From Halomonadaceae bacterium T82-2 (lineage in GTDB: Bacteria; Pseudomonadota; Gammaproteobacteria; Pseudomonadales; Halomonadaceae): a DNA stretch of 64,000 nucleotides. A model generated the notes under the pieces. That model did not search any database, was not told the origin of the DNA, and saw only the letters and a list, made by a program, of their open reading frames with translations. Shown here piece by piece: positions 8,335 through 35,885 of this stretch (the first letter of the stretch is position 1; every line of letters begins with the position of its first letter). The translations under genes were made by a program, and so were the position numbers. The DNA is taken from positions 62,001 to 126,000 of the forward strand of contig LSBP01000010.1 of the NCBI GenBank assembly GCA_001577635.1, read 5' to 3'.

Positions 8335-8426
8335 CGGGCGGGGTGCTTGATAATTGGGCCGACGCCCCAAAGACTGAGGACAGGGCCGGCCACGGCCTGT
8401 TTCCACCATCAAGGGAGTGAGTGCCA

Positions 8427-8654
8427 ATGACCGATCATGACCTGTCCGAGGATTTTCGCCTGCCGGTGGGGTGCCCGTCATGCGGCAGCCACCTGATGCG
8501 GGTGTCCGAGGTCCACAACCCTGACGACAAGGTGTTCTGTGCCTCGTGCAATGCCTATGTGTGCCTGTATCACGAAGCGCAGGAGATCCTGCGCCAGGGG
8601 CCCGGCAGCGAGAGCGAGGCGCTGCTCGAGAAGGCCGTGAACGCACGGCACTGA
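8427..8654 (+). CDS. Small zinc-ribbon protein, function unknown
   Basis: The 75-residue protein has two Cys pairs, CPSCG near residue 16 and FCASCNAYVC near residue 39, fitting one structural zinc site. The C-terminal third is helical and acidic. I do not recognise a named family. An in-frame GTG at 8421 sits closer to AAGGGAG and is an alternative start adding two residues. Confidence 0.72.
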   Translation: MTDHDLSEDFRLPVGCPSCGSHLMRVSEVHNPDDKVFCASCNAYVCLYHEAQEILRQGPGSESEALLEKAVNARH

Positions 8655-8669
8655 CACGTTTCCCTGCCG

Positions 8670-8711
8670 ACGCCGGCCGGTGCCCCGCATGAGGGGCTGC
8701 CCGGCCGGCGT
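8670..8711. terminator. Strong hairpin between convergent genes
   Basis: ACGCCGGCCGG (8670-8680) pairs with CCGGCCGGCGT (8701-8711), with an inner TGCCCC/GGGGC extension. It lies between the zinc-ribbon gene and the phoH stop. There is no T-tract on either side, so termination on both strands is inferred. Confidence 0.6.
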
Positions 8712-8725
8712 TGTCGCGAGTGGGA

Positions 8726-10135
8726 CTACAGCAGGTCTTCCGCCGCCATGGCCAGCCGCGAGCGTTCGACGCTTTTCAGGGTGATGTGCCCGGCATGCGG
8801 CCAGTCGCGAAAGCGTTCGACCACGGCTGCCATGCCGCAGGTGTTGGCGGTGAGGTAGGGAGTGTCGATCTGGCCGACGTTGCCCAGGCAGACGATCTTG
8901 GTATTGCGTCCGGCCCGCGAGATCAGCCCCTTGAGCTGCTTGGGCGTGAAGTTCTGGGCCTCGTCGATGATCAGGAAGGTATCGTTGAGCGTGCGTCCGC
9001 GCATGAAGGTCGGCGAGCGAATCTGCACCCGTGAGCCGATCAGCTGGCGGGTGGCCCCCTCGCTCCAGTTCGAGGTGCCGTCGCGCTCGTCGCGCAGCAG
9101 GTTGTCCATGTTGTCGTGGAAGGCCCCCATCCACGGCGACATCTTCTCCTCCTCGGTGCCCGGCAGGAAGCCGATATCCTCCCCCATGGGGATCGGCGCA
9201 CGGGTGAAGACGATGCGCTCGAAGCGCTTCTGGTCGAAGGTCTGCTCGAAGGCGGCGGCCAGGGTCATGTAGGTCTTGCCGGTGCCGGCGGTGCCGGCGA
9301 TGGTCACCAGGTCGATCTCGGGGTCCATCAGCAGGTTGAGCGTGAAGTTCTGCCGACTGTCGTGCGCGTGCACGCCCCAGACCCCGGCGTGATGGCGGTA
9401 GTTGGTGAGCAGTTCGAGGCGGGCGCCGTCGGTTCGGTACTCGCGCACGATGGCTTCGAAGTCGGCGCCGTTGTCGCTGTCGGCCACCAGCATGCCGGCA
9501 TGCCAGTCCGCAGGGAGCGTGCCGGTGAGCGCATAGCAGGTCTGCTGGTCGATGCGCTCGACGCTGACGTCGACATCGAGCGATTCCCAGAGACCGGCAC
9601 CGTCCGGCCCTGCCTGCGCGTAGACCCGGGCCCCCTCGATCATAGCGTCGTTGTCGCTGAACGCCCGGTCGTTGCGGTAATCCTCCACCGGCACGTTGAG
9701 CGCCGCCGCCTTGACGCGCAGGTTGATGTCCTTGGTCACCAGGATGACGGACGCATCCGGGCGTTCGTCGCGCAGCCGGCAGGTTTCGGCCAGCAACCGG
9801 TTGTCGGGGCTGTCCTCGAGCGGGTCGAGCGGCTTGAGGTCGCTGTAGCAGAGAAAGCGCAGGCGGCCGGTCTGGCCGGTGCCGGGCAACTGGATGCCGG
9901 CGCGGATCTCGTCGAAGGTGGCGTTGGCGGTCAGTTCGGAGAGCGTGCGGCTGACCTGGCGCGCGGTGCGAGCGATGTCGCGCAGGCCGTTCTTGTGCTT
10001 GTCGAGTTCCTCGAGCACGGTCATGGGGATGACCACGTCGTGCTCCTCGAAGTGATACAGGGCGGCCGGATCGTGGATCAGGACGTTGGTGTCGAGTACA
10101 TAGAGGCGGGTGGCCTTCTTGTCGATACGTACCAT
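8726..10135 (-). CDS. PIN domain-PhoH family ATPase (PhoH2/YlaK-type)
   Basis: The 469-residue protein joins an N-terminal PIN nuclease-like domain (about 10-150, LYVLDTNVLIHDP and ILVTKDINLRVKA with conserved acidic residues) to a C-terminal PhoH ATPase domain (about 245-469, Walker A IAGTAGTGKTY, Walker B FLIIDEAQNF). PIN-PhoH proteins are linked to ATP-dependent RNA unwinding and cleavage. The ATG at 10135 is the best start although AAGGAG lies about 11 bp upstream, a longer spacing than usual. It is monocistronic here. Confidence 0.9.
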   Translation of the reverse strand: MVRIDKKATRLYVLDTNVLIHDPAALYHFEEHDVVIPMTVLEELDKHKNGLRDIARTARQVSRTLSELTANATFDEIRAGIQLPGTGQTGRLRFLCYSDLKPLDPLEDSPDNRLLAETCRLRDERPDASVILVTKDINLRVKAAALNVPVEDYRNDRAFSDNDAMIEGARVYAQAGPDGAGLWESLDVDVSVERIDQQTCYALTGTLPADWHAGMLVADSDNGADFEAIVREYRTDGARLELLTNYRHHAGVWGVHAHDSRQNFTLNLLMDPEIDLVTIAGTAGTGKTYMTLAAAFEQTFDQKRFERIVFTRAPIPMGEDIGFLPGTEEEKMSPWMGAFHDNMDNLLRDERDGTSNWSEGATRQLIGSRVQIRSPTFMRGRTLNDTFLIIDEAQNFTPKQLKGLISRAGRNTKIVCLGNVGQIDTPYLTANTCGMAAVVERFRDWPHAGHITLKSVERSRLAMAAEDLL

Positions 10136-10351
10136 CGGCGTGAGCACTCCTTGGTTGATGGCCTTCTCGACGCTGACAGTCGAGCATGGCACGGCGATGA
10201 CAACCACTGGCATGAGCCCCGTCACGGGGCGTCGGGAGTTGCGGGTCGATGGTTCTCCTTGTGTCGTGGGCGGGATGAGTCTCTTTTCGTCAAGATGGGT
10301 CGAGATCGCGTGAAACGCCAGCCACAGCGTTTCACGCAAGGGCGTCGAGCC

Positions 10352-10534
10352 TCATGTCTTGATGCCGCCCCAGCCGTGCTGATGGCAGTCACAGTCCGCA
10401 TCCTGGCAGGGCTCGCGGTCGGGGTGGGCGCTGGCGCAGGCTGCGCAGCAGTAGTAGTGGCCGTTGACCGGCAGCGCCGTGTCGGGCACGACGCACTGGC
10501 AATAAGGGCACTCGCAGATGCGTTTCTCGTCCAT
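10352..10534 (-). CDS. Bacterial metallothionein (SmtA-like)
   Basis: This 60-residue protein has ten cysteines (7, 9, 12, 14, 29, 30, 33, 43, 48, 50) and four histidines. They are arranged as CxCxxCxC, then CCxxC and CxCH, the pattern of prokaryotic metallothioneins that bind Zn/Cd/Cu in a cluster. The GHYYCCAACASAHP core matches the family zinc-finger-like fold. An AGGCTTCGA stretch precedes the ATG. No ArsR/SmtB regulator is adjacent. Confidence 0.85.
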   Translation of the reverse strand: MDEKRICECPYCQCVVPDTALPVNGHYYCCAACASAHPDREPCQDADCDCHQHGWGGIKT

Positions 10535-10813
10535 TCGAAGCCTCCGTTACCATGTCATGATGGGATTCAGTGTAGAAGGGGGAAGCTCGGGTGTGGCAAG
10601 CGCCTGCCGGGGTCGGCGGGGCGAGTGACACGCTGCGAAAAAGTGGGCAGGGTAAACAGTCGGATCAGGGGCAGAGGTGGGTCATGCCGGAGGGGCGTCG
10701 TGTTCTGCAGGTCGAGGACAGCGAGTCGAGGGTCGCCATGACACGGGCGGCACGGAAAGCGGCGGGCCGGGCGGGCCAGCCGCACGGTGCGGGACGGTCG
10801 GGAGGGACGTTGC
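10535..10813. other. Intergenic region, no gene seen
   Basis: These 279 bp separate the divergent metallothionein and Hpt-REC-REC-GGDEF genes. No convincing ORF, long repeat or operator was found; promoters for both must lie here, but no good -35/-10 pair stands out. Confidence 0.4.
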
Positions 10814-20224: not shown

Positions 20225-22198
<1,974 letters not shown>

Positions 22199-22266
22199 GA
22201 CCACTCCTGAAGGGGAAGGCGGCGGGGGCTATGCTGGGAACGGCATTCGTCACCCGAGGGGCTTCG

Positions 22267-22845
22267 ATGACCGCTCGCCAGCCGCGCCCATTCTCGCACA
22301 TCGTCGGCTTCGACGATTGTCCCTTCGCGCGCGACCATCGCGGCCTGGTGACCGTGATCGGTGCGGTGTACTCGGGCAGCCGACTGGCCGGCGTGGTCTC
22401 GGGGCGTGTCGAGCGCGACGGCCTCGACGCCACCCGCGAGCTGCTGCGCCTGACGGGCGGGACGCGCTTCGCCCCGCACCTGCAGCTGATCCTGCTGCAG
22501 GGCGTGGCGCTGGCCGGCTTCAACGTCGTCGATGCGGTGCGCCTGCATCGTCTCTCGGGGCTGCCGGTGCTGGTGGTCGCCCGTCATGCGCCGCGCCCCG
22601 AGGCGCTTCGCGAGGCCCTGCTTGCGCACATTCCCGGCGGTTCGCAAAAGTGGGCGCGCATCGCCCGGCTGGGGCCGATGGAACCGCTGGCCGGCGTGTA
22701 CGTCCAGCGCCAGGGCCTGAGCCGTGACGAGGCCGAGCGGGTGATCCGCGCCACCGCGCTCGAGGGGCGGATTCCCGAGCCGCTGCGTGCCGCGCATCTG
22801 ATCGCCGGCGGCATCGCCCGTGGCGAGAGTCGGGGGCGTACCTGA
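22267..22845 (+). CDS. DUF99-family protein (endonuclease V-like fold)
   Basis: The 192-residue protein has the DUF99 pattern: HIVGFDDCPFA near the N-terminus, VTVIGAVYSG, LLQGVALAGFNVVDAVRLH and LPVLVVARHAPR. DUF99 is mostly archaeal and distantly related to endonuclease V; some archaeal members have been reported to act on deaminated or uracil-containing DNA. Start ATG 22267 is chosen for GAGGGG just upstream; ATG 22231 is in frame. It diverges from recQ with only 68 bp between starts. Confidence 0.78.
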   Translation: MTARQPRPFSHIVGFDDCPFARDHRGLVTVIGAVYSGSRLAGVVSGRVERDGLDATRELLRLTGGTRFAPHLQLILLQGVALAGFNVVDAVRLHRLSGLPVLVVARHAPRPEALREALLAHIPGGSQKWARIARLGPMEPLAGVYVQRQGLSRDEAERVIRATALEGRIPEPLRAAHLIAGGIARGESRGRT

Positions 22846-22970
22846 GCATCGCGGGTGGCTGTCGAGCCGACGCACTGGAGCGAAGCGTCGGGGCCTTCCT
22901 ACACTCAAGCAAGGCTGCGTGATCCCGGAAATCCCGCTTTTGCCGCCGTGTGCGGCGAGGAGGTCGACCC

Positions 22971-23645
22971 ATGGTGTTTTCGCCCCGGAGCGTCACCCTC
23001 GAGGCTGCCGGCGTCGAGTTGAAAGGGGACCTGATCGTTCCCGAGGGGGCCACCGGCATCGTGGTGTTCGCCCACGGCAGTGGCAGCAGCCGTTTCAGCA
23101 CCCGCAACCGTCAGGTAGCCGAGTATCTCGCCTCGCAAGGCCTGGCCACGCTGCTCTTCGATCTGCTTACGCCGGACGAGAACGTCATCGACGAGCGCAC
23201 CCGCGAGCTGCGTTTCGACATTCCGCTGATCGGGCGGCGCATGACCGGCGCGGTGGACTGGGTCGCCCAGGCCGAGGCGACCCGTGAACTCGCCATCGGC
23301 CTGTTCGGTGCCAGTACCGGCGCGGCGGCGGCACTGATCGCCGCCGCCGAACGCCCGCAGGCGGTGAAGGCGGTGGTCTCGCGCGGGGGCCGGGTGGATC
23401 TTGCCGACGAGGCGCTGGCGCGGGTCGTGGCACCCACGCTGTTGCTGGTCGGTGGGCGCGATCATCCGGTGATCAATCTCAACGAGCAGGCACGAGAGCG
23501 GATGACCGCCCCTTGCGAACTGATCACTGTGCACGGTGCCACCCACCTGTTCGAGGAGCCGGGCAAGCTCGAGGAAGTCCAGCGGCTGGCCGGGTTGTGG
23601 TTCCTCGAGCATCTCGATCCGCAGCGCGCGACGACGCTGCTTTGA
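22971..23645 (+). CDS. Dienelactone-hydrolase-like alpha/beta hydrolase
   Basis: The 224-residue protein has HGSGSSR (oxyanion loop), nucleophile elbow GLFGASTGAAAAL, an Asp in LLVGGRDHPVI and the final His in HGATHLFEE. The family includes phosphoribosyltransferase-linked hydrolases and dienelactone-hydrolase relatives of unknown substrate. GGAGG lies seven bases before ATG 22971. Confidence 0.85.
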   Translation: MVFSPRSVTLEAAGVELKGDLIVPEGATGIVVFAHGSGSSRFSTRNRQVAEYLASQGLATLLFDLLTPDENVIDERTRELRFDIPLIGRRMTGAVDWVAQAEATRELAIGLFGASTGAAAALIAAAERPQAVKAVVSRGGRVDLADEALARVVAPTLLLVGGRDHPVINLNEQARERMTAPCELITVHGATHLFEEPGKLEEVQRLAGLWFLEHLDPQRATTLL

Positions 23646-23841
23646 TGCAGGGCGCTACCCCAATGAGGCCAGTCGATTCCCGGATGCAGCGCTAGGAAGG
23701 AGCGCTCCTGAGCGTGTGGCTGGCGTATCGTTCGGCCAGCTTCGCGAAGGGCCGTGTCGTGGCCTGCGCGGCGGTTGGGGCTGGGCCTCGGCTGTCAGCT
23801 GTAAAGTGCGACTTATTATCATTGATCCCTGGAACACAGCC

Positions 23842-23869
23842 TTGATGGTCGATCAACCGGAGATAGAAT
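23842..23869 (+). promoter_or_regulatory. Sigma70-type promoter of the Wadjet-like operon
   Basis: TTGATG (23842-23847), 16-bp spacer, TAGAAT (23864-23869). The expected start site is near 23876, giving a leader of about 30 nt before the first gene. The rest of the 262-bp gap holds no gene; GGAGCGCTCC near 23699 is a small palindrome. Confidence 0.65.
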
Positions 23870-23907
23870 GACCTTTCCAACCGAGAGCTAACCATCAAGG
23901 ATGCCGC

Positions 23908-26900
23908 ATGGCTCAGCTGTTACGAATCGTGATGATCCACGGTCATCTCGAGGGGGTGGTCGAACTGGATGTCGACGGCCACACCAACATCTGCGGCACC
24001 AATGCGTCGGGCAAGACGACCCTGCAGCGCCTGGTGCCGGTCTTTTACGGGGAGCTGCCCAACCGGGTGGTGCCCAAGACTCGGCGCAAGTTCGATGCCT
24101 TCTACCTGCCGCATCGCAACAGCTACCTGGTCTACGAATATCGCCGCGAGGAGGGCGACGTTTGCCAGGCGGTACTCACCCGCAAGAGCGAGGGCGGCGT
24201 GGAGTATCGCTTCGTCGGCGCGCCCTATCGCCCCGAGGACTACCTGGTCGAGACCGAAGCTGGGGTGGTCGCTATCGACTATGCCCAGTGGCATCAGGGG
24301 CTGCGCCGGCAGGGCACCCCGGTGTCGCAGAAGCTCGGCGCCACCTCGGAATATCGTGCGGTGATCCAGAACGATTTCACCCAGCACGGCAGCGGCGGGG
24401 GACGTCGCGAGGGTCTGAAACTGCGCCAGGTCGCCGCCCGCTTCAGCCTGGTGCGGCCCGGGCGGCGCATCCGCCACATGGAGAAGCTGGTCTCGGCGGT
24501 GCACGCCAAGGAGGGCAAGATGGACACCCTCAAGACCATGCTGGCGGCGATCTTCGAGGAAGACGGCGTCGAGCTGCCGATGACCCGCATCCGCAACACC
24601 AAGGCGCGGGAGTGGATCGCCCGCATGCGCCAGTCGATGCGCCTCGAGCCGCTGCAGAAGGCCCTGGCGGACCTGCAGCGCCAGGATCGCGAGATCGCCG
24701 CCCTGGAAGCCGGCCTGTGGCAGCTGCGTCCCCAGCTCGAGGCTGATCGTGCCCGGGCCGAGCGCGGCCGGGCCGATCTCGAAGCGCAGATCGGCGAGCG
24801 CCAGCGCGACTTCCAGGCCCGCGAGCAGGCCTACGAACAGGCGCGCCAGGACGTCAACGACCGCCTCAGCGAGATGGGCAGCGAGCTCGAGCAAACCCGC
24901 ACCGAGCTTGATGATCTCCAGCGCCGCTTCGAGGCCTTCGAGGAGGCCGACATGCCCGGCCTGGAGCAGGACCTCAAGGCGCTGCCCCAGTGGCGCGAGC
25001 AGCAGCAGGGCCTGCGCGACCACCTCGAGTTCATGCAGCAGGCGGTGCAGGAGAGCAAGGTCCGTCTGGAAGCGCGTCTTGTCGAACTCGGTGATCAGCT
25101 CGAGCGCCGCCGCGACGAGCTCCAGGCCCGAATCGACGCCCTTGGCGAGGAGAAGGACGCCCGCCGCGAGAGTCAGCGCGAGGCCGAGAGTCGCCTCGAC
25201 GCCGACTACCAGACCCGCCGCCAGGCGCTGGATAGCGACTACTGCGGGCGGCTCGAGCAGCTCACCGCGCGCCTCTCCGAGCTCAAGGCCGAGCTCGCCC
25301 ACGGCACCCAGACCGAGGACGAGGCCCGCGAGGCCGAGCGGGCCCAGCTGCGCGTCGACGAGGCCCGCAGTGCCCAGGACGCCATTGCCGCCACCCTCGA
25401 GGCTCTGCGCGGCGAGCTCGACGGTCACAAGCGCGCCCGCGACGATGCCGAGCGCGAGCTCGACCGGGTCCGCCAGCAGCGCGCCCGGGCCGAGGCTCGC
25501 CTCGAGGCCTTGGAGGTGCAGCGCGATCCGGCCCAGGGCAGCCTGCGGCACTTCCTGCGCCATCACCGCCCCGGCTGGGAGCAGACCCTGGGCAAGGTGC
25601 TGGCGCCGGCGCTGCTCAAACGCCGCGACCTCGCCCCGCAGCTCAACGACGACGCCAGCGACGACCTCCACGGCCTGGCGCTCGACCTGGCCGCCATCGC
25701 GCTGCCGGACCATGCCCAGGACGAGGCCGGCCTGCAGGCCGAGATCGCCGCCGCCGAGCAGGCGCTGGGCGACGCACGGGCGGCGGAACAGGACGCCGAG
25801 AAGGCCCTCAGGACCGGGCACCAGAAGGTGCAGGAGGCCGACGCGCGTCTCGAGCGGGCCAGCGGCGAGAAGCGCCGCGCCGCCGAGGAGGTGGACTACG
25901 CCCTGCAGGCCCGCAGCCAGTGTCAGGTGCGTCATCAGCAGGCGCAGCAGGAACGTCAGGCGAGCCGCCGCCAAGCCCTCGAGGAGCAGGAGGCGGTGCA
26001 GCAGGCGCTGCGCGAGGAGCGCGACCAGGCGCTGGCGACGCTGGACGAGACCCACCGCGCCCAGCGCATGGAGCTTACCGCCGATCATCAGGGCCAGCTG
26101 GCCGGCGTCGATCGGCAGATCGAGCAGTATCGCCGCCAGCTCGGCGAGATCCGCGAAGACAATCGCCGCCAGCGCGAGGAGCTCGAGGCCGCCTTCGATC
26201 GTGAGCTGGCCGACCGCGGCGTCGACCCGGTCAAGGTCCGCGAGACACGGGCGAAGATCGAGGACCTGGGCCAGCGCATCCACGACACCGAGGCACGGCG
26301 CGACGAGCTCGACGCCTACGCCCGCTTCATGCGCCTTGACTGGGGCGAGCGCAAGCCGCGTCTGGTGGCGCGGGAAGCGGAGCTGAGCCAGGCCCAGCAG
26401 GCCGCCGAGCACGAGCGCAAGACGCTCAAGGACGCCTTCAACGCCGACCGGGCCGAGCATCGGTCGGCGGTGGGTGAAATCAAGACCCGCCGCGAGGCCG
26501 AGCAGGCGCTGATCGAGACCCTGGCGCCGCTGCTCGACACCCTGGAAGGACTGACCCTGGCGCCGGCCAGCGAGCCCCGCGGCGAGGCCCAGGGCGACGT
26601 CGACGAGCGCATCGAGCGCGCCCGCCATGCGCTCACCGAGCATGCCCGCGCGCTCGATGCACTGCGCCGAGGCTGCGAGAAGATCGAGGCCGACCTGATC
26701 AAGGGCGCCAGCGCCGACTTCCAGGATACCCTGGAGGCCGAGCGCGCCAAGCTCGAGGATACCGGTCCGCGCCGCCTGCTGGCGGTGCTCGCCGACATGC
26801 TGCAGCTGCTCGAGGGGCAACAGCAGCAGCTGCTGCAGGAAGGGCGCAATCTCGGCGACGATCTCGACAAGTTCTTCACCGTGTTCCGCGACCTCAACCG

Positions 26901-27588
26901 GCGCATCAACGCCCAGAGCCGGCGGCTCTCCGACGAGGTGGCCGACGACCTCAAGCTCGAGGGTATCGGCAAGGCCGAGGTGAAGATCCAGTCGACCATC
27001 GACGAGCTCGGCTTCTGGGAGCCGCTCAAGCGCTTCGCCCAGCGCTACCGTGAGTGGCGTGATGGCGGCCGCACGCTGCCGGACGATGACTACCTCGACG
27101 CCCTGGGCGACGTGGTGGAGCTGTTGCGCAGCGATCAGCAGTACAGCGTCGAGAGCCTGCTGCGCCTGGAGCTGCACCTCAACGAGGGCGGCGCGGACCT
27201 GGTGATCAAGAACGACCGCCAGCTGCTCGAGTCCTCCAGCCACGGCATGGCCTACCTGATCCTGTGCAAGTTCCTGCTGGCCTTTACCCGGCTGCTGCGC
27301 GGCCCGGCCGAGGTCGCCGTGCACTGGCCCATCGACGAGATCGGCACTCTGGCGTACCACAACGTCGAGAAGCTGTTCGACGCCTGCGACAACAACCGCA
27401 TCCATATCGTCGGCGCCTTCCCCAATCCGGAGTCGGATGTGCTGATGCTGTTCCAGCACCGCTATCTGATCGACCGCGACGAGGCCGTGCCCAACAAGCG
27501 CCGGCTCAAGCGCATCGAGCCGCGCCTGAGCCGCCTGGCCCAGCGCCTGCAGGACCGCGAGAACGACCGTCAGGAGACATCGGCATGA
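23908..27588 (+). CDS. jetC: SMC-like ATPase of a Wadjet/MksB-type complex (JetC-like)
   Basis: This 1226-residue protein is built as an SMC motor: N-terminal Walker A GTNASGKTTL (30-39), long charged heptad coiled coils from about 215 to 1000 with a central less-coiled hinge-like region near 540-620 (HFLRHHRPGWEQTLGKVLAPALL), and a C-terminal ATPase half. The ABC signature appears as SSSHGMAYLILCKFL (from 1109) and Walker B as WPIDEIGTL (D1143, E1144). The SSHG signature departs from the usual LSGGQ but is consistent with distant MukB/JetC ATPases. It should dimerise and extrude DNA loops with the proteins from the next two genes. Ribosome site CAAGG lies 7 bp before ATG. Confidence 0.85.
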   Translation: MAQLLRIVMIHGHLEGVVELDVDGHTNICGTNASGKTTLQRLVPVFYGELPNRVVPKTRRKFDAFYLPHRNSYLVYEYRREEGDVCQAVLTRKSEGGVEYRFVGAPYRPEDYLVETEAGVVAIDYAQWHQGLRRQGTPVSQKLGATSEYRAVIQNDFTQHGSGGGRREGLKLRQVAARFSLVRPGRRIRHMEKLVSAVHAKEGKMDTLKTMLAAIFEEDGVELPMTRIRNTKAREWIARMRQSMRLEPLQKALADLQRQDREIAALEAGLWQLRPQLEADRARAERGRADLEAQIGERQRDFQAREQAYEQARQDVNDRLSEMGSELEQTRTELDDLQRRFEAFEEADMPGLEQDLKALPQWREQQQGLRDHLEFMQQAVQESKVRLEARLVELGDQLERRRDELQARIDALGEEKDARRESQREAESRLDADYQTRRQALDSDYCGRLEQLTARLSELKAELAHGTQTEDEAREAERAQLRVDEARSAQDAIAATLEALRGELDGHKRARDDAERELDRVRQQRARAEARLEALEVQRDPAQGSLRHFLRHHRPGWEQTLGKVLAPALLKRRDLAPQLNDDASDDLHGLALDLAAIALPDHAQDEAGLQAEIAAAEQALGDARAAEQDAEKALRTGHQKVQEADARLERASGEKRRAAEEVDYALQARSQCQVRHQQAQQERQASRRQALEEQEAVQQALREERDQALATLDETHRAQRMELTADHQGQLAGVDRQIEQYRRQLGEIREDNRRQREELEAAFDRELADRGVDPVKVRETRAKIEDLGQRIHDTEARRDELDAYARFMRLDWGERKPRLVAREAELSQAQQAAEHERKTLKDAFNADRAEHRSAVGEIKTRREAEQALIETLAPLLDTLEGLTLAPASEPRGEAQGDVDERIERARHALTEHARALDALRRGCEKIEADLIKGASADFQDTLEAERAKLEDTGPRRLLAVLADMLQLLEGQQQQLLQEGRNLGDDLDKFFTVFRDLNRRINAQSRRLSDEVADDLKLEGIGKAEVKIQSTIDELGFWEPLKRFAQRYREWRDGGRTLPDDDYLDALGDVVELLRSDQQYSVESLLRLELHLNEGGADLVIKNDRQLLESSSHGMAYLILCKFLLAFTRLLRGPAEVAVHWPIDEIGTLAYHNVEKLFDACDNNRIHIVGAFPNPESDVLMLFQHRYLIDRDEAVPNKRRLKRIEPRLSRLAQRLQDRENDRQETSA

Positions 27589-28256
27589 GCGAGGACATGA
27601 TGTCAGGGTATTCGATCGCAGAGCGGCCCATGGTGGAGCTGGGCCCGCTGCTCGAACGTCTGCTGGCCGGCGATTTCATCTGCGCGGTCAGTGACGACAC
27701 GGCCTTCCGCCGCCTGCAGGACGAGGCGACCCGCGAGCGCCTCGACGCCTACCTGCGCCCGCTCAACCGTCGCCTGGCGAGCAACGAGGAGGGCAGCGTC
27801 TATTTTCTGGCCTGGCGTCATCTGGACGAGGGCGCCCGCGACCAGCTTTCCCGCCAGCTGGCGGAGACCGTCGGCAGCCTGCTGCCGATGCTCGAATGGC
27901 TGCAGCTGGTGCAGGAGGCGCTCGGCCGCGACGGCCCGGTGTCACCCGGGGGCGTGCTCAAGCCCGCCGACTTCAGCTCGCGCTGCGAGGACAACCAGGG
28001 GCTGCGCGAGCGCCTCGAGCGCCTGGCCACCGACCCGTTCTTCGGCTCCCAGAGCGAGCAGCTCGACGCCCAGATCAAGCAGGTCTTCAAGCGCCTGCGC
28101 GAGCGCGGCTACCTGAGCCAGCCCCACGCCGACCGCCAGTACTTCGTCGCCACCGCCAAGATCGACTACCTGATCGAGCTGGTGCGCTTCATCCGAGACG
28201 AGGAACAGCTGCCCGTCGACGACCAGGCCCCGGAGGCCCAGGAGCGGCTGCTGTGA
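27585..28256 (+). CDS. jetB: KITE-like subunit (JetB/MksE-like)
   Basis: The 223-residue protein starts by an ATGA overlap with the SMC gene. It begins with a helical segment (ERPMVELGPLLERLLAGDFICAV) and ends with a predicted winged-helix region (DAQIKQVFKRLRERGYLS ... RQYFVATAKIDYLIEL), as in MukE/MksE/JetB KITE proteins that bridge kleisin and SMC heads. Assignment rests on size, winged-helix character and gene position; I could not run a profile search. Confidence 0.75.
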   Translation: MSEDMMSGYSIAERPMVELGPLLERLLAGDFICAVSDDTAFRRLQDEATRERLDAYLRPLNRRLASNEEGSVYFLAWRHLDEGARDQLSRQLAETVGSLLPMLEWLQLVQEALGRDGPVSPGGVLKPADFSSRCEDNQGLRERLERLATDPFFGSQSEQLDAQIKQVFKRLRERGYLSQPHADRQYFVATAKIDYLIELVRFIRDEEQLPVDDQAPEAQERLL

Positions 28257-29512
28257 GCGCGAGCGACGCCGACATCCTGGACAACCGCCTGCTCGGCACT
28301 GGCGCTGAGCGCCTGGCGTTGCTCGGCAAGCATGCCGAGGCGCTGATGGCCGGCTATGTGCGCGACGAGGTGCCGCTGGAGAACCTGAGCACCACCGCGC
28401 TGAACCGGCTGCTGTCGGCGCGCATCCTGTGGCGGCCCGACGAGCAGGCCGGGGTGAAGCTCTCGCCCAAGGTCCGCGAGCTGATCGCCGAGATGTTGGC
28501 TGACGAGACCCGCCGCCACGTCAACGCCGACGTGGCCGAGACCCTGGAGCTGATGCGCGGCCTGGTGCAGAGCTACCGCGAGGCCCGCGACGGCGCCGAG
28601 TACTGGCGCCAGGAACAGCAGCTGCTGCACCTGCGCCAGGCGGTGGACGACCTCGACGGCCGCTTCGCCGACGCCATCGACAGCCTGTGGCGTCGCCTCA
28701 ACAGCGACTTCGGCTTCGTCAGCCGGCTGGCCGACAAGATCCGGGAGAACGACCGCGCCCAGAAGCAGATCGTGCGCCTGCTCGACGGCCTGGCGCTGAT
28801 CGACTTCGACGAGCTGATCGACCTGGTGGGCGCCGACGGGGCGCTGCGCAAGCTGCTGGTCAGCCAGCTCCAGCATCGCCTGAGCCAGCACTACACCAGC
28901 CTGCGCGAGGTGCAGCGGCGGCTGATCGAGCTGATGGCGCGCTTCCGCCAGCAGCAGTCGCGCAGCCGCCTGGTGGCGGGCATGGCCGCCTTCCTGCGCG
29001 AGCATCCCGGCTTCGTGCCCGGCAACTACGCCCGGCGCAGCGAGGTGCCGGCACTGGTCAACCGTGCCGCGCCGCTGACCGCTGCCGGCGCGGTGGCGCT
29101 CGATCATGCCCCGGACGCCCGGGTCGTCACCGAGCTGCTCCATGACCTGCCACGGCCTACCGCGGCGCCGGAGCCCGTCGTCGCCGCCGTGGCCGTCGAG
29201 CGTCAGGAGGACTCGATGGTCACCGCCCGCCAGCAGGCGCTGAGGGAAGACGTCGAACGCTTCTATCTGTCGGTGGTCGAGGGTGACGGCGCGTCGCAGA
29301 GCGCGCTCGAGTATCTCGAGGCAGGCGAGCTCGAGTGGGGCGAGGAGATCTGGCTGTTCCAGGTGCTGGCCGAGTTCCAGGGCCTGCCCCGGCGCGAGCA
29401 GGCCGCCTTCCGGCTGCGCCAGCACGAGAGTCGGGCGGCCGCCTTCAACGACGTGCGGTTGATTCACGACGTCAGCCTCCAGCTTGCCCCCGCGCGACAG
29501 GGCAGCGCATGA
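28253..29512 (+). CDS. jetA: Kleisin-like subunit (JetA/MksF-like)
   Basis: The 419-residue protein starts at GTG 28253, whose GTGA overlaps the stop of the previous gene. The N-terminal third has a winged-helix look (YVRDEVPLENLSTTALNRLLSARILWRPDEQAG), the middle is helical with a coiled coil (about 95-240), and the C-terminal part is acidic with another compact domain (SALEYLEAGELEWGEEIWLFQVLAEF). This matches MukF/MksF-type kleisins that close the SMC ring. No upstream ATG suits the coupling geometry as well as this GTG. Confidence 0.75.
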   Translation: MSASDADILDNRLLGTGAERLALLGKHAEALMAGYVRDEVPLENLSTTALNRLLSARILWRPDEQAGVKLSPKVRELIAEMLADETRRHVNADVAETLELMRGLVQSYREARDGAEYWRQEQQLLHLRQAVDDLDGRFADAIDSLWRRLNSDFGFVSRLADKIRENDRAQKQIVRLLDGLALIDFDELIDLVGADGALRKLLVSQLQHRLSQHYTSLREVQRRLIELMARFRQQQSRSRLVAGMAAFLREHPGFVPGNYARRSEVPALVNRAAPLTAAGAVALDHAPDARVVTELLHDLPRPTAAPEPVVAAVAVERQEDSMVTARQQALREDVERFYLSVVEGDGASQSALEYLEAGELEWGEEIWLFQVLAEFQGLPRREQAAFRLRQHESRAAAFNDVRLIHDVSLQLAPARQGSA

Positions 29513-30384
29513 CCACGCTCTCGGAGGCGGCGCGGCGGGTGCTGCGCGATGCGGCGGACAAGCTGCGTCGCGCGCCTCACGTCGACAAGCCCCGCGGCGC
29601 TGCGGTCACGGAGATCGTCGCCTGGTGCCGGGCCTGGGACATCGAGCCCGGGGCGCGCCTGAATCGTGTCCGGCTGCGACTCGATCGCGAGCTGCTGGAG
29701 GGCATCGACGCCGAGCTCGAGGTACAGGGGCAGCCGCCGCTGGCGTCCGAGCTGAGCGGGCTGACCACCGCCGAGCAGGCCGAGCATGGCCATCAGGAAG
29801 CGAAGAGCGTGCGCGAGGCGCCGCGGGAATCGCGGGTGCTGGTCAGCCTGCCGGCCCGAGCGTCCTGGCCGGGCATCGCCGGCGGCGAGCGGGAGTGTCT
29901 GGATGTCGACTGGCATGCCATCACGCCTGCCGTCTTTGATGTGCTGTTGCAGGTCGAGAATCTCGACAGCTTTTACGCTTTCACGACCGAGATCCCGGCG
30001 CTGTCGGCGTATCAACGGCCGCTGATCGTCTATCGCGGCGATCGCCACTACGGTGGCGGCTTCGCCCGCCTGGCCGAGGCCTGGGCGGCGACCGGGCGGC
30101 CACATGGCTACGCCGGCGACTTCGACCTCAAGGGGCTCGATATCGCGTTGGCCAGCGGCGCGACCGAGCTGCTGTTGCCGTCGCTGGCATGGCTCAGGCA
30201 CCACGCGACAACTGCTCATGTGCCGGAGGGCCAGGAGCCCTATCGGGAGCGGCTGCGGCGGCATCGCGCTACGCTGCCCGAGACCCACCCGCTGCGTGGC
30301 TATCTGGCGTTGCTGCTTGACGAGCAGCGCGGCCTGAAGCAGCAGTGGTTCTGTGAGCAACAGGAGTGGGTGCCGTTTTATTGA
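29509..30384 (+). CDS. jetD: Toprim-domain protein (JetD/MksG-like putative nuclease)
   Basis: The 291-residue protein starts by ATGA overlap with the kleisin gene. Its C-terminal half has the Toprim/topoisomerase VI-like pattern: a conserved Glu in LLQVENLDSFYAF (E150) and the DxD motif in YAGDFDLKGLDIA (D204, D206), with VYRGDRHYGGGF between. JetD/MksG cleaves plasmid DNA in Wadjet systems using this metal site. It is shorter than many JetD proteins (about 370-400 residues), and the N-terminal region (1-100) is a helix-rich domain I do not recognise. It is the last gene of the unit; no terminator hairpin is evident after it. Confidence 0.8.
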   Translation: MTTLSEAARRVLRDAADKLRRAPHVDKPRGAAVTEIVAWCRAWDIEPGARLNRVRLRLDRELLEGIDAELEVQGQPPLASELSGLTTAEQAEHGHQEAKSVREAPRESRVLVSLPARASWPGIAGGERECLDVDWHAITPAVFDVLLQVENLDSFYAFTTEIPALSAYQRPLIVYRGDRHYGGGFARLAEAWAATGRPHGYAGDFDLKGLDIALASGATELLLPSLAWLRHHATTAHVPEGQEPYRERLRRHRATLPETHPLRGYLALLLDEQRGLKQQWFCEQQEWVPFY

Positions 30385-30556
30385 TACCTTTTTGTGCGCG
30401 ATATCTTTCAGCACAGAGACAGGTTTCTCGTTAGCGGCTGCAGGATCATCGAAAGGCAGCAAGCCGGCGTCGGTCGTGGCCGCCACGCTGGTCGGACAAG
30501 GCCTCGATAGGGATCAATGCTGATGACTGACGAGATGGCAGGGGGAGGGGAGTGAA

Positions 30557-30958
30557 ATGACAGTCTATGGTCTGGGAGACAGCACGCTACAGGCGCTTGG
30601 CGGCGAAGCGGCGGTGATCGAACTGGTCGAGCGCTTCTATGCGGCGATGGAGCGCCTGCCCGGCCTGCCCGAGGCGCACACGATCCGCGCCTGGCACCCC
30701 GACGATCTCACTCAGTCGAAGGACAAGCTGGCGACCTTTCTGATCGGCTGGATGGGCGGACCCAGCCGCTACCGTGAGCGCTTCGGGCCGATTGCCATTC
30801 CTCGCGCTCACCACCACCTGCCGATCGGCCCCGCGGAGCGCGATGCGTGGCTGGCCTGCATGGCCACGGCCCTCGACGAGATGGCCGTGGAGCCGCAACT
30901 GCGTCGCTATCTACTGGAAAAGCTGCGCCATCCGGCGGAACTCTGTCGTAGCCACTGA
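30557..30958 (+). CDS. Group II truncated hemoglobin
   Basis: The 133-residue protein matches the truncated-hemoglobin group II (GlbO/YjbI) pattern: ALGGEAAVIELVERFYAAME, LIGWMGGPSRYRERFG, a His-rich F-helix region PRAHHHLPIG holding the proximal His, and the Trp of the G helix in RDAWLACM. Such proteins bind O2/NO and may protect against nitrosative or oxidative stress. GGGGAGGGGAGTGAA precedes the ATG. Confidence 0.93.
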   Translation: MTVYGLGDSTLQALGGEAAVIELVERFYAAMERLPGLPEAHTIRAWHPDDLTQSKDKLATFLIGWMGGPSRYRERFGPIAIPRAHHHLPIGPAERDAWLACMATALDEMAVEPQLRRYLLEKLRHPAELCRSH

Positions 30959-31014
30959 CGCAGCAGCGTAGCCATTGGCGAAGAAAACGTCGGCAAGGCG
31001 GTATGCGGTATTTC

Positions 31015-31028
31015 GTTAGCACACTAAC
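31015..31028. promoter_or_regulatory. Inverted repeat upstream of marR (putative operator)
   Basis: GTTAG-CACA-CTAAC is a 5-bp perfect inverted repeat 19 bp before the chosen marR start, placed for autoregulation. Confidence 0.5.
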
Positions 31029-31047
31029 ATGTGATACGATGCTTCGC

Positions 31048-31506
31048 ATGCAAACTAATGACCTGCCGAATGCCGATACCTCGCTGGGGATGCGCTTGGG
31101 GCACGTTCATCGCCTCTGGCGCACCGTCGTGGACCGCACCGTTGCCTCGTCGGGGTTGACCCAGCCGCGCTGGACGGCGCTGTTCATGCTGCGTCACCTG
31201 GGAGATGGCGCGACCCAGAAGCAGCTGGCCGACTCGCTGGGCATCGAACTGCCGTCACTGTCGCGGACGCTGGCCCAGATGGAGCGCCAGGGGCTGATCG
31301 AGCGGCGGACGCCGAGCGAGGATCGCCGCGTTCGTCAGGTCTTCTTCACGGCGGCGGGCCGCCGGGCGCTGGAGGAACTCGAGACGCGTGCCGACGAGGC
31401 GAGAGCCTTGCTGCTGGCAGGTCTGGAGCCGGCCGAGCGCGAGATCTTCCATCGTGTCCTGCGCCACATCGAGTCCAATGCGGCGCATTGGCTGTCCGGC
31501 CATTGA
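31048..31506 (+). CDS. MarR-family transcriptional regulator
   Basis: The 152-residue protein has the MarR winged helix: TQPRWTALFMLRHLGDGATQKQLADSLGIELPSLSRTLAQMERQGLIERR and the wing SEDRRVRQVFFT. It precedes an efflux pair and most likely represses it, with release by an aromatic ligand. An in-frame ATG at 31003 would place the putative operator inside the gene, so a later start is preferred; 31039 is also possible. Confidence 0.9.
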   Translation: MQTNDLPNADTSLGMRLGHVHRLWRTVVDRTVASSGLTQPRWTALFMLRHLGDGATQKQLADSLGIELPSLSRTLAQMERQGLIERRTPSEDRRVRQVFFTAAGRRALEELETRADEARALLLAGLEPAEREIFHRVLRHIESNAAHWLSGH

Positions 31507-31557
31507 GTACCGCCGTTTCCCCACGCCCTTGTCGATCCATCTGTCAGAGAGAGAGCC

Positions 31558-32619
31558 ATGACCCCGGAGCAGCGATTTGCCCGTTGGGTGCGTGCGGCGA
31601 TTGTGCTGTTCGTCGTGCTGTTCGTCTATTTCGTGTTTGCCGATACCTACATGCCGGTCACGCCGCAGGCCCGCGTCCTGCGCGAGGTGACGCGGGTGGC
31701 GCCGCAGGTGAGCGGGCCGGTCGAGGCGGTCGCCGTCACCAACAATGCCGCGGTCAAACAGGGGCAGCTGCTGTTTCGCATCGACCCCGAGCCCTTCCGG
31801 ATCGCCGTGGACAAGGCCCGGCTGGCGGTCGATCAGGCACGGCGTGAGAACGCCCAGCTGGATGCCGCCCTGGCCGAGGCGCGCGCCAACCTGGCCGAGC
31901 GCCGTGCCACGGCCGATGAACTGGCCGGCGAGCAGCAGCGGGTCGAGTCGCTGATCGCCCGCGGCAGCATCTCTCGTCAGCGCTACGACTCGGTTATGGC
32001 CGATGCGCGCGCCGCACGCTCGGCGGTGGCGGCCGCCGAGGCCAGGGTGCACTCGCTGGAGGTGCAGCGCGGCCGGCAGGGCGACGACAATCTGCGGGTG
32101 CGTCAGGCGCGCAATGCCCTGGCCGCCGCGACGCTCGACCTGCGGCGCACCCGCGTCACCGCTGCGCACGACGGCCGAGTCAGCAATCTTCAGCTGGACC
32201 CGGGGGACACGGTACACGCCGGCTCGCCGGTGCTGGTCAACATCGGTCGCAAGCTGGATATCATCGCCGACTTCCGCGAGAAGAGCCTGCGTCACGTCAA
32301 ACCGGGGGATTCGGCCTGGATTGCGCTCGATGCCCGTCCGGGAGCGGTCTATCGGGCACGGGTGGTCTCCATTGATGCCGGGGTCCGCGACGGCCAGCTG
32401 GCGGCGGACGGCAATCTGGCATCGATTCCCGCCACTGATCGCTGGGTGCGGGACGCCCAGCGCATCCGTGTTCACCTGCGCCTCGATGCGCCTCTCGAGT
32501 CCCTGCCGCCCACCGGCGCGCGGGCCACGGTGCAGCTGGCCCCGCTCGACAGTGGCCTGAGCCGGGCGCTGGCCCGGGCGCAGATCACGCTGCTGAGCCT
32601 GCTCCACCATGTCTACTGA
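31558..32619 (+). CDS. HlyD/EmrA-type periplasmic adaptor of an efflux pump
   Basis: The 353-residue protein has one N-terminal membrane anchor (AAIVLFVVLFVYFVFA, about 14-29), a split lipoyl/barrel-sandwich domain (VAPQVSGPVEAVAVTNNAAVKQGQLLFRID ... TRVTAAHDGRVSNL), a helical hairpin (about 85-185) and a beta-barrel C-terminus. It resembles AaeA/EmrA adaptors. It overlaps the next gene by 11 bp, so the two make a bipartite inner-membrane pump; no outer-membrane channel gene is adjacent. Confidence 0.88.
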   Translation: MTPEQRFARWVRAAIVLFVVLFVYFVFADTYMPVTPQARVLREVTRVAPQVSGPVEAVAVTNNAAVKQGQLLFRIDPEPFRIAVDKARLAVDQARRENAQLDAALAEARANLAERRATADELAGEQQRVESLIARGSISRQRYDSVMADARAARSAVAAAEARVHSLEVQRGRQGDDNLRVRQARNALAAATLDLRRTRVTAAHDGRVSNLQLDPGDTVHAGSPVLVNIGRKLDIIADFREKSLRHVKPGDSAWIALDARPGAVYRARVVSIDAGVRDGQLAADGNLASIPATDRWVRDAQRIRVHLRLDAPLESLPPTGARATVQLAPLDSGLSRALARAQITLLSLLHHVY

Positions 32620-33694
32620 GGCGCCTCGCTGGCCGCTGCTGCGTGATGCCTGGCGGCTGCTGACCGGGCACCGCGACGGCGAGGGGCTCGATGAGAACGG
32701 GCTGCGCCAGTGCCTGAGAGTGGCCGGCGGCGGTGCCCTGGGCTTTCTGGTCAGCCAGCTGATGAACTGGAACTACGGGGTCTTCTTCACCGTGTTTCCG
32801 ATGTTCCTGCTGGGGCTGGTGCCGGTGCTCAACGGCCATGTAGTGCGTCAGTTTCTGGGCAACGTGCTGGTCAACTGTGTCGAGGTCAGCCTGGTGGTGG
32901 GCCTGACCCGGCACATGCCGGTGGTGATGACGGGGCTGGTGTTTGCGCTGTTCTACACGCGTTTCCGGCTGATGGCTCGCGGTCCACTGTTTCTGTTCGG
33001 CGCCAACGGGGTGCTGACGCTGAGCATCCTGTTCCACTTCGCCAGCTATCCGTCGATCGATCTGGCCGACCTGCTGACCTGCAATCTGGTGGCCAGTGTG
33101 CTGGCGGTAGCGATCGCGGCGCTGATGTATGTGGTGTTTCCGGATCGCGAACCCCGCCGGCCCCCGCCGCGCCCGTCCAAGTCGGCCGCCCGGATCCGCC
33201 ACGAAACCCTGATCGGCGCCGTCACCGCCACGCTGTCGTTCGTGATCTTCCAGGTCTTCGACCTGCGTGACTCGCTGTCCGCGCAGATGGCGACGGTGCT
33301 GATCCTGTTCTCGCTGGGCTACCCGGGGGCACGCTTGTCGGCCCGCAAGCGTGCGGTGGGCACACTGCTCGGCTGCAACCTGGCCCTGGCGAGCCAATTG
33401 CTGCTCTACACTCAGGCCCAGCATTTTTTGCTGGTGCTGGTGGTCTACTGGCTGGGACTGATGGTGTTCGCTCGGGTGCATGTGCTCGAGGGCGCGGGTT
33501 CGGGGGTCGGGTTCGGTGGCTTGACGACGCTGGGCATCCTGTTCGGCCAGTCGTTGTCGCCCAATCAGGATCTGATCTACAGCGCCCTGTATCGTTTCTC
33601 GTCGATGAGTGTGGCGCTGGTGGCGACGCTGGTGCTCATGGCGCTGCTGGATCGTCTGCTGAATGTCTGGGCACCGACCCGGGCCATCGAGTAG
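32609..33694 (+). CDS. DUF2955/FUSC-like inner-membrane efflux subunit
   Basis: The 361-residue protein has about ten hydrophobic segments in two blocks (about 40-165 and 195-355) separated by a short polar stretch (FPDREPRRPPPRPSKSAARIRHE). This is the DUF2955 arrangement, related to fusaric-acid-resistance/AaeB pumps. With the adaptor encoded upstream and the MarR regulator it probably exports aromatic acids or similar toxic compounds. It ends 15 bp from the convergent cyclase gene. Confidence 0.85.
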   Translation: MSTEAPRWPLLRDAWRLLTGHRDGEGLDENGLRQCLRVAGGGALGFLVSQLMNWNYGVFFTVFPMFLLGLVPVLNGHVVRQFLGNVLVNCVEVSLVVGLTRHMPVVMTGLVFALFYTRFRLMARGPLFLFGANGVLTLSILFHFASYPSIDLADLLTCNLVASVLAVAIAALMYVVFPDREPRRPPPRPSKSAARIRHETLIGAVTATLSFVIFQVFDLRDSLSAQMATVLILFSLGYPGARLSARKRAVGTLLGCNLALASQLLLYTQAQHFLLVLVVYWLGLMVFARVHVLEGAGSGVGFGGLTTLGILFGQSLSPNQDLIYSALYRFSSMSVALVATLVLMALLDRLLNVWAPTRAIE

Positions 33695-33709
33695 TCGCAA
33701 GGCAGGGCG

Positions 33710-35722
33710 TCAGGCCCGAGCGCAGACCCGGTTGCGTCCGTCGTGCTTGGCGGCGTAGAGACGCTGGTCGGCACGTTCGATCAGGGTGTCGGCGGTATCG
33801 TCGGGCCGGTACTCGGCGACGCCCAGACTGGCCGTGATGCGGGTCGCGGGCAGGCCGAAGTCATGGGCGGCGATGGCATGGCGGAGCCGCTCGGCCAGGC
33901 GCTGCGCCGCGTCGGCGTCGGTCAGCGGCAGCAGGATGGCGATTTCCTCGCCGCCGAAGCGGGCAACGAGGTCTTCCTGTCGCAACAGGTCGCGGCACAA
34001 CCGGCTCAGCACGCGCAACACCCGGTCGCCCTTGAGGTGCCCCCAGGTGTCGTTGATGTGCTTGAAGTGGTCCAGGTCGAGAAGAATCAGGGCCAGCGTG
34101 GTGTGATGGCGTCGGGCGCGGGAGAGTTCGCTGGCCAGGGCCTGCATCAGCCGACGCCGGTTGGCGAGTCCGGTCAGGGCGTCGGTATCCGAGAGTTTCT
34201 TGAGGCGGTGGGCCTTGGCGACCTGGTCGTTGATGTCGAACAGCACGCCGTGCCAGAGCGTGCCCTGCTGACTGCGCTCGGGCTGGGCTCGCAGGGTGAT
34301 CCAGTGTGTGGCCTGGCCGTTGTCGTGAAGGCGCAGCTGGATGGACAGCCGAGAGAGACGTCGTGTCGATTTCTCGATGGCGGCGATGAGTCGCGGGCGA
34401 TCTTCGAGGGCGATACGTTCCAGGACCGGTTGGGCGTCGTGCTGCAGTTCCCGGCGGTCCAGGCCATCGAGCAGCGGGGCGTCGCCGGCCAGGTAGGGCA
34501 GGCTCGTGCGGCCGTCCCTGTCGCGCTGGAACTGGAAGATCAAGCCGGGAATGCGCCGGGTCATGAGTTCGAGCCGGTGCAACAACCGGGCCTCGCGGCT
34601 CGCATCGAGCAGGGTGCCGATCAGCTCGCGTTCGCCACCGGTCCGGCGCGGCCGCGAAATCAGGGCCTGATTCTGTACCGTCAGGTAATGACCGTCCTCG
34701 TGGCGCAGCCGATAGCGCAGGGTACTGCGGCCCTGGTCGGCCTCGGTGACGCGTTCCAGCCAGGCAGCCACCTCGTCGCGGTCCTCCGGGTGCACGCGCG
34801 CGAGGAGGCCGAGGTCATGCAGCTGGTGGGCGTCGGGCAGGCCGAGCAGGGACTGGATGTTGCGGCTGAGATAGTGAAACGCCCAGGGGGCCGTGGGGGC
34901 GCAGGCGTAAAGCACGGCCGGGTTGGCCTCGAGCAGATGACGTAGCCGGCGGTGGGCGTTGGCGGCGCTGCGCCGTGCCTGGGCCAGGGCGGTGAGGTTG
35001 TGGACGAAGCCGATGAGACAGTCGTCGCTGTCCGGTTCGTGCGTCAGGGTCAGCAGCGTGGTACGCAGCCGCAGATACCGCCCCTGGAAGGGCAGCGTAT
35101 GCTCGTAGGTGGCGGGAACCCGGTCACGCAGGCTGGTCGCGTAGTAGCGCTCCAGACGCATGCCGGCAATGTCGCCGAAGACCTCGCGGGGCGAACGGCC
35201 GGCGATCGACAGGCTTTCGAAGGCCTCGTTCATGGCCGGATTGCTGTAGCGATAGCGAAAATGCCCGGTTACCGCGTCGCGCTGGGCGATGAAGGCGCTG
35301 GTGGGCATGGGCTCGAGCAGTTGCCGGCTCAGGATCTCCAGAGTCTTCGGCAGCGGGCCGGTGGCCACGGCCGGTTCGGGCAGACGCCGAATCAGGCCCT
35401 GCCAGCCCGTGGGGGTGCAGGCAATCTGTTCCTCGAGTTGATGCCGGGCGCCAGCGATGACCAGCGTGTAGCGGCCACTGGCGTGGCCCTCCCGGGAGGC
35501 GGCGTCCAGCAGGGTCCGACGTGCGGTTTGCCACGGCGACTCGGCGGTGTCGTCGCCTGCGGGACGGTGAAGGCCAGCAAGGAATGCCGGCGTTTCCAGG
35601 CCCAGCAGGCGCTGCGGATCGCCTGCCAGCACAACCGGCTCGCCTCGCGGCATGGGGACGTGCCAGATCAGAAAGTCGAGGCTTTCCGCGGCATGGGCCA
35701 GCATGGCATCGAGGCAGGACAT
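33710..35722 (-). CDS. PAS-containing diguanylate cyclase
   Basis: The 670-residue cytosolic protein has several PAS-like domains (about 130-240, 250-370 with FHYLSRNIQSLLGLPD and RVHPEDRDEVAAWLE, and 375-495) followed by GGDEF (about 505-668; DALTGLANRR, DLDHFKHINDTWGH). The catalytic motif is GGEEI rather than GGEEF, a variant found in active enzymes, with an RQED inhibitory-site motif ahead of it. No EAL domain and no membrane segment are seen. The start at ATG 35722 is where the conserved region begins. Confidence 0.88.
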   Translation of the reverse strand: MSCLDAMLAHAAESLDFLIWHVPMPRGEPVVLAGDPQRLLGLETPAFLAGLHRPAGDDTAESPWQTARRTLLDAASREGHASGRYTLVIAGARHQLEEQIACTPTGWQGLIRRLPEPAVATGPLPKTLEILSRQLLEPMPTSAFIAQRDAVTGHFRYRYSNPAMNEAFESLSIAGRSPREVFGDIAGMRLERYYATSLRDRVPATYEHTLPFQGRYLRLRTTLLTLTHEPDSDDCLIGFVHNLTALAQARRSAANAHRRLRHLLEANPAVLYACAPTAPWAFHYLSRNIQSLLGLPDAHQLHDLGLLARVHPEDRDEVAAWLERVTEADQGRSTLRYRLRHEDGHYLTVQNQALISRPRRTGGERELIGTLLDASREARLLHRLELMTRRIPGLIFQFQRDRDGRTSLPYLAGDAPLLDGLDRRELQHDAQPVLERIALEDRPRLIAAIEKSTRRLSRLSIQLRLHDNGQATHWITLRAQPERSQQGTLWHGVLFDINDQVAKAHRLKKLSDTDALTGLANRRRLMQALASELSRARRHHTTLALILLDLDHFKHINDTWGHLKGDRVLRVLSRLCRDLLRQEDLVARFGGEEIAILLPLTDADAAQRLAERLRHAIAAHDFGLPATRITASLGVAEYRPDDTADTLIERADQRLYAAKHDGRNRVCARA

Positions 35723-35885
35723 GGGGCGTCGACTCCCGGCGGTTTGTCGTGCGAGGCCTGTCGCTGATCGGCAACAAGGCCTGTACAAAACGCAACACTA
35801 TACGCCCGAAACGAAACGCGCGTCATGCCTCAGATCATGTCAGCCCTGATCTCGAAACCATGTCAGTGATTTCCTACAGCCCCCT

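Follow-up and report, generated by a model that had tools for sequence, protein, structure and literature searches.

SMC (structural maintenance of chromosomes) complexes of the Wadjet type I and MksBEFG kind extrude DNA loops, recognize small circles and cleave them with a Toprim nuclease. The MksBEFG operon of C. glutamicum and Pseudomonas is arranged as mksF-mksE-mksB-mksG and is called Wadjet type I, according to an excerpt of PMC10123090. Here we describe an operon of the halophilic Halomonadaceae bacterium T82-2 that comprises the same four roles but starts with the SMC gene. It is located at positions 23908-30384 of a stretch of 64,000 nucleotides (contig LSBP01000010.1, positions 62,001 to 126,000; hereafter the window), where four co-directional genes on the plus strand encode an SMC-family ATPase, a KITE subunit, a kleisin and a Toprim nuclease, respectively. 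As judged from sequence comparison, the operon is a divergent MksBEFG/Wadjet-like subtype that lies outside Wadjet types I-III as modelled. It is quite probable that its products form an SMC machine of four subunits, of the same kind as MksBEFG and Wadjet, with the gene order B-E-F-G and with a further role of the core that does not depend on the nuclease. The data show the protein families, the conserved ATPase and Toprim residues, the gene order, the co-inheritance, the mobility, the selection and the distinct clade.

Architecture of the operon and its four products

The four open reading frames are joined by a 4-bp overlap at each junction (ATGA, GTGA and ATGA, in order), exactly where a first-pass annotation of the window had placed them. 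A contig scan for relatives, in which the best 80 of 109 candidates were kept, yielded 79 loci, mostly from Halomonas and its allies, in addition to Ectothiorhodospira, Marinospirillum and Celerinatantimonas. All four genes follow the order SMC-KITE-kleisin-Toprim in 68 of these loci, which rules out chance reading frames, and the other 11 either lack the Toprim gene or end early. The unusual SMC-first order pointed out in the first-pass annotation is thus found in loci of the DUF3584 clade defined below, including 10 of 10 plasmid copies. Twenty further loci have the same order wherever all four genes were found; two are fragments only, the kleisin profile found nothing in L134, and the kleisin of L145 is split. 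The overlaps recur at 119 of 136 SMC-KITE, 80 of 94 KITE-kleisin and 44 of 64 kleisin-Toprim junctions, counts that are biased towards overlap because the start codon nearest to the preceding stop was picked.

The SMC protein (23908-27588), which takes the MksB/JetC role, has 1226 residues and matches Pfam DUF3584 (PF12128) over its full length, with 780 bits across residues 8-1189. The Walker A motif from G30 to T37 (23995-24018), the ABC signature SSSHG at residues 1109-1113 (27232-27246) and the Walker B pair D1143-E1144 (27334-27339) all lie at the positions given at first pass. K36 is conserved in 145 of 146 relatives, whereas S1111, G1113 and the Walker B pair are present in all of them. 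These three motifs and the full-length family match identify the protein as an SMC ATPase, the coiled coil not being separately predicted. Searches with the SMC gave 0 matches against the PDB sequences (phmmer, E up to 0.1) and none in a scan of viral contigs.

The KITE subunit (27585-28256), of 223 residues and in the MksE/JetB role, scores 41.8 bits against the Pfam MksE family PF21980 (cut-off 27), with profile matches of 83.4% to JetB and 88.5% to MksE. Following a variable linker, its C-terminus ends with QERLL (28239-28253), a tail of the type Q-x-x-[LM]-[LFIM] that is conserved among the relatives. The strict pattern is present in 20 of 23 KITE representatives (80% identity), compared to 15 of 2580 background open reading frames. 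By eye, it was seen in 0 of 11 type I JetB tails and 0 of 4 MksE tails, and the proteins at the KITE position of type II Wadjet end with Q-x-x-[LM]-[LF] in two out of two cases. As the tail is retained (QGSLI) in the nuclease-less forms of a family labelled f141, it is probably not a dock for the nuclease. It resembles the bacterial β-clamp-binding motif and might possibly serve as such a motif, or address tag; that just 2 of 10 plasmid copies have the strict pattern speaks against a general role.

The kleisin (28253-29512), which starts with GTG, has 419 residues and takes the MksF/JetA role. Its AlphaFold model has a mean pLDDT (predicted local distance difference test) of 83.5, and eight of the ten top structural matches are to chains of MukF size in MukF, MukEF or MukBEF entries. 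The winged helices at the N- and C-termini expected of a kleisin are predicted by fold only, from the model topology and these MukF-type matches. By analogy, the protein would bridge the SMC subunits. JetA structures are not among the fold matches listed, which does not exclude a likeness to JetA.

The Toprim protein (29509-30384), of 291 residues and in the MksG/JetD role, scores 44 bits against DUF7281 (PF23947; cut-off 27). Its model (pLDDT 91.9) best matches the C. glutamicum nuclease 8b7f, which, together with the invariant glutamate E150 (29956-29958) and DxD motif of D204 and D206 (30118-30126), all kept in 34 of 34 sequences, assigns it to the MksG-type, TopoVIA-like Toprim nucleases with predicted catalysis. 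For both this protein and the kleisin, the structural matches are a second look at the ranking of Foldseek itself. Another glutamate, E97 (E96 in alignment A2), is invariant in the 31 sequences of A2, but the larger alignment has it in only 15 of 34 sequences. The alignments comprise 29 of 30 kleisin (A1, one being cut), 31 of 56 Toprim (A2) and 25 of 34 KITE representatives (A3). Altogether, the four families proposed at first pass were right.

Upstream of the operon, a sigma-70-like promoter match on the plus strand (23842-23869; TTGATG, 16 nt, TAGAAT) agrees with the consensus at 9 of 12 positions. The "one good promoter" of the first-pass annotation thus exists as a consensus match, whose function is plausible yet unproven, as the scan of 22500-32000 gave two such sites against 0.5 expected. 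The same scan gave no terminator-like site on the plus strand.

Comparison with Wadjet, Mks and Muk systems

In a tree of the head domains of 46 SMC proteins, the 28 DUF3584 proteins form one clade (99/97), separated from the JetC1 (100/100) and JetC2 (100/99) clades. The tree took 18 of 27 chromosomal SMCs, has flagged long branches and places the SMC outside the JetC clades of types I and II, type III JetC not being included; a search for JetC3 in the class sample found no full-length type III. Chromosomal and plasmid SMCs are intermixed in it without a clear direction. The PADLOC Wadjet models gave only weak matches (JetB1 16.2, best JetC 21 and JetD3 14 bits, with hits to JetC1-3), and none of its JetA models matched in the operon. 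Similarly, DUF3375 was not matched in Pfam, where DUF4194 (20.3 bits) and JetD_C (12.9 bits) stayed below their cut-offs, and a search of NCBIfam with the operon proteins gave nothing informative. By the PADLOC and Pfam definitions, the operon therefore falls outside the family models of Wadjet I-III, and an ordinary type I-III identity is rejected on the basis of Pfam, PADLOC and the head-domain tree (types I and II in the tree).

The gene order differs as well. As a yardstick, 12 type I loci were fetched from 24 genomes over the DUF3375 cut-off, 11 of which have the order kleisin-KITE-SMC, the remaining one being cut by a contig end; a JetD-sized reading frame was used from nine. This agrees with the order kleisin-KITE-SMC-nuclease given at first pass for the founding Wadjet examples. 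Around MksE, the order MksF-E-B, with SMC third, was found in four of six loci, the other two being cut or unresolved. In both yardsticks, the genes adjoining JetA and MksE were assigned by size and position. The window operon, with SMC first, thus departs from the Mks order F-E-B(-G). In addition, an MksE-like protein of 184 residues lies behind reading frames of 1013 and 464 residues at L188:2689-7675, possibly another SMC operon of a different order.

Like MksBEFG, the operon combines an SMC, a KITE subunit, a kleisin and a TopoVIA-like Toprim nuclease. They differ in the gene order, in the kleisin, which is not recognizable by sequence here, and in the size of the SMC, with 917-943 residues in four fetched MksB proteins compared to 1226. 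Wadjet type I JetABCD also shares the four roles, and the C-terminal part of JetD is homologous to the Toprim protein. However, the latter is shorter by about 100-130 residues than most of the JetD proteins fetched and aligns only from JetD column 125 on; moreover, the DUF3375 family of JetA is unmatched by the window kleisin. In Wadjet type II, the SMC (JetC2, TIGR02680-type) has about 1380 residues and belongs to another clade. The type II KITE and kleisin profiles do not match the window proteins, but as the profile set consists of two loci, with the reading frames of L178 mis-assigned ("JetA2" is a helicase, and the starts of "JetB2" and "JetD2" were placed too far upstream), these scores are weak evidence. 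The MksBEF and MukBEF condensins resemble the operon in the MukF-type kleisin fold, and nuclease-less forms exist among its relatives as well. Unlike them, the operon occurs in a family with a separate housekeeping SMC in 201 of 201 genomes, and 64 of 73 assessable copies have a full Toprim gene.

The suggestion at first pass of a divergent subtype therefore stands as to the separate clade, the SMC-first order and the weak PADLOC matches, whereas its unassigned status holds for the libraries and papers searched. The open-licence literature, partly judged by title or the start of the abstract, gave no account of a four-gene system with a DUF3584 SMC and DUF7281.

Transfer and spread of the operon and probable loss of the nuclease gene

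The DNA of 23894-30351 shares 93.2% identity with the Halomonas getboli operon (L031), with homology stopping at both edges and no common flanks, compared to 71-81% identity for long matches of the L031 flank DNA to the genome of the window. Two genomes of another genus match the operon at 94-95% identity over the 5,081 bp compared, whereas their RecQ is 68% identical. By contrast, Modicisalibacter ilicicola and Halomonas sp. LBP4 have neighbours in common with the window, yet their operon copies are 79-80% identical. Since the identity of the operon far exceeds that of the flanks and its edges are sharp, we conclude from these comparisons that it has moved between genera as one unit. Just upstream of the H. 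getboli operon, an element of ~90 bp (L031:9646-9736) is a dispersed repeat, matching about two dozen of the 50 places listed in the genome of the window, at ~77-92% identity.

The DUF3584 cut-off is passed by 90 of 201 genomes in the family of the window, 2 of 14 in its genus and 10 of 369 in its class. A tblastn search with the KITE subunit found 14 plasmid records among 72,556, four of them typed as conjugative. In all of the ten copies read, the four genes follow this order and carry annotations as an ATP-binding protein (one gene) and hypothetical proteins (three). One phage record among 50,697 also holds the four-gene locus. This 209-kb record, deposited as Dolichospermum phage Dfl-JY45, contains them in the same order at 4298-10653 of the piece L203 (PP438435.1, 82610-99209), with a KITE end of QGLLL. 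Its viral nature is unconfirmed, as 20 scanned proteins included replication and methylase families but no capsid, portal or terminase. Housekeeping SMC (TIGR02168) was found in all 201 genomes of the family, in 199 of them above the cut-off, and the operon was therefore rejected as the sole condensin of its genome; MukB was not searched for.

Counting genes of 270 residues or more as full, the Toprim gene is full at 64 of the 79 scanned loci, truncated at two and absent at seven, with three loci having too little DNA and three lacking the kleisin at a contig end. Thus, of the 73 loci that could be assessed, nine lack the gene or have a broken copy. At L105, the Toprim gene was counted as full though it lies 3.1 kb from the kleisin, with two other reading frames in between (L105:11600-14739), so the nuclease gene can be uncoupled from the operon. 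At L070:15539-22945, it is an insertion target, interrupted by ~6.4 kb that includes a reading frame of 1324 residues and others. A nuclease encoded elsewhere was sought in eight of the nine genomes without an intact gene, and none has a full relative, though two hold remnants; the positive control L081 was detected. Replacement by another effector was rejected as well, the downstream reading frames of the nine loci looking unrelated by eye (not searched by family). Furthermore, a form with three genes occurs in two genomes of family f141, neither of which has a Toprim relative (2 of 2 searched). A quick tree of 82 SMCs, of which 11 come from loci without Toprim (L128, L129, L070 and L080 among them), requires nine changes, eight of which are forced by well-supported branches. 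The label is hardly clustered (9 changes compared to a shuffled mean of 10.5, with 42 of 500 shuffles as low). Losses are the simplest reading, and any one change may be a gain.

The core of SMC, KITE and kleisin has a dN/dS (ratio of nonsynonymous to synonymous substitution rates) of 0.02-0.07 in four Toprim-less pairs, compared to 0.02-0.20 in five Toprim-bearing pairs, in which the Toprim gene itself has 0.07-0.39 and, by this measure, evolves fast. In L067 and L068, which have a common deletion junction, the SMC gene differs at 28% of synonymous sites with a dN/dS of 0.054, indicating that the core is under selection without the nuclease; a common origin of the loss was demonstrated for this one of the four Toprim-less pairs. 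The core thus probably functions without the nuclease too, and its constraint after repeated nuclease loss points to a function besides nuclease-based defence.

Proposed mechanism and alternative readings

We propose that the kleisin would bridge two SMC ATPases, to which KITE dimers would bind, and that this complex would extrude DNA loops using ATP, in analogy to Wadjet type I and MksBEFG. Once it has taken up a small closed circle, the motor would pass this DNA on to the Toprim protein for cutting. Loop extrusion, small-circle recognition and Toprim cutting are carried over from work on Wadjet type I and MksBEFG, in part as described in PMC10586767 and PMC10123090. The same analogy suggests restriction of plasmids or phages, and makes it fairly likely that the operon restricts plasmids. 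Because purifying selection persists after nuclease loss, the core would have a second job, a condensin-like handling of the chromosome or of invading DNA, to which we give somewhat better than even chances.

Several observations weigh against this reading. The SMC is closer to MksB (profile match 99.8%) than to JetC, although it falls in a separate clade to which MksB is sister with weak support (90/59), and coiled coils may have inflated such profile matches. The kleisin falls into no Pfam family above cut-off, and its sequence does not significantly match that of any kleisin (best MksF, 43.8%; JetA and MukF profiles below 1%), while profile comparison fails even between the known kleisins JetA and MksF (0.8%). 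Its fold Z of ~12 overlaps that of unrelated helical bundles, such as CorA with 11.5, and the whole-chain structural alignment has a root-mean-square deviation of 46.8 Å. Hence, of the two assignments that could have failed, the 223-residue KITE protein passes the MksE model, whereas the 419-residue kleisin is upheld by fold but not by sequence. Moreover, in 91 SMC pairs at least 95% identical, the upstream flank is common in 71, the downstream flank in 52 and both in 42, which suggests that the operon is also resident in many lineages, more like a condensin than a roaming defence gene. The neighbours in the window (20225-35788) are of housekeeping type, with no evident defence island: a RecQ-like helicase, an endonuclease dU family protein, an alpha/beta hydrolase, a bacterial globin, a MarR regulator, HlyD and DUF2955 proteins, and a GGDEF protein.

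The operon might instead be mainly an alternative chromosomal condensin of the MksBEF kind, in which the Toprim protein would be an accessory found only now and then, perhaps acting as a decatenase or as a nuclease in repair, and whose job would not be plasmid restriction. The strong purifying selection on Toprim-less cores, the recurrent nuclease loss from an otherwise retained core, the three-gene form of f141 and the stable chromosomal site in many relatives would all fit such a condensin, which we nevertheless consider unlikely in view of the patchy presence (90/201 in the family and 10/369 in the class), the transfer between genera, the housekeeping SMC in 201/201 genomes, the plasmid copies, some conjugative, that kept the nuclease in 10/10, and the faster evolution of the nuclease in the five pairs, as an arms race would predict. 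Slightly less probable still is a plasmid- or phage-borne competition system that excludes rival circles, the chromosomal copies having been domesticated and having lost the nuclease over time. Nuclease loss in chromosomal copies but in 0/10 plasmid copies, the four conjugative plasmids among the 14 and the record deposited as phage agree with it; yet those 14 plasmid records (out of 72,556) and the single phage record (out of 50,697) are few, the phage record is unconfirmed, and the intermixed tree shows no clear direction.

That the operon is a plain Wadjet of type I, II or III with shuffled genes is very improbable, for the same four roles and the weak PADLOC matches to JetC1-3, JetB1 and JetD3 are outweighed by the unmatched DUF3375, the DUF4194 and JetD_C scores below cut-off, the position of JetC1 and JetC2 outside the DUF3584 clade, and the order unlike that of the type I loci fetched (type III not in the tree). 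A more speculative extension, which we regard as doubtful, is a separate branch of SMC-based DNA immunity, in which the core would be selected for its own job and the Toprim protein would be a detachable, fast-evolving weapon; the core would perhaps be recruited to replicating DNA by a β-clamp-binding tail of KITE, watching replication and not only DNA shape.

As a probable four-subunit machine of the MksBEFG/Wadjet kind, the operon adds a mobile SMC-nuclease branch that is weakly matched by the PADLOC library used and that is annotated on plasmids as ATP-binding and hypothetical proteins. Lineages in which the motor persists although the cutter is lost are a natural test of the role that a Wadjet-like core has in the absence of the nuclease, and bear on the relation between chromosome-folding and DNA-destroying SMC complexes. 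In halomonads, the operon may affect the uptake of plasmids.
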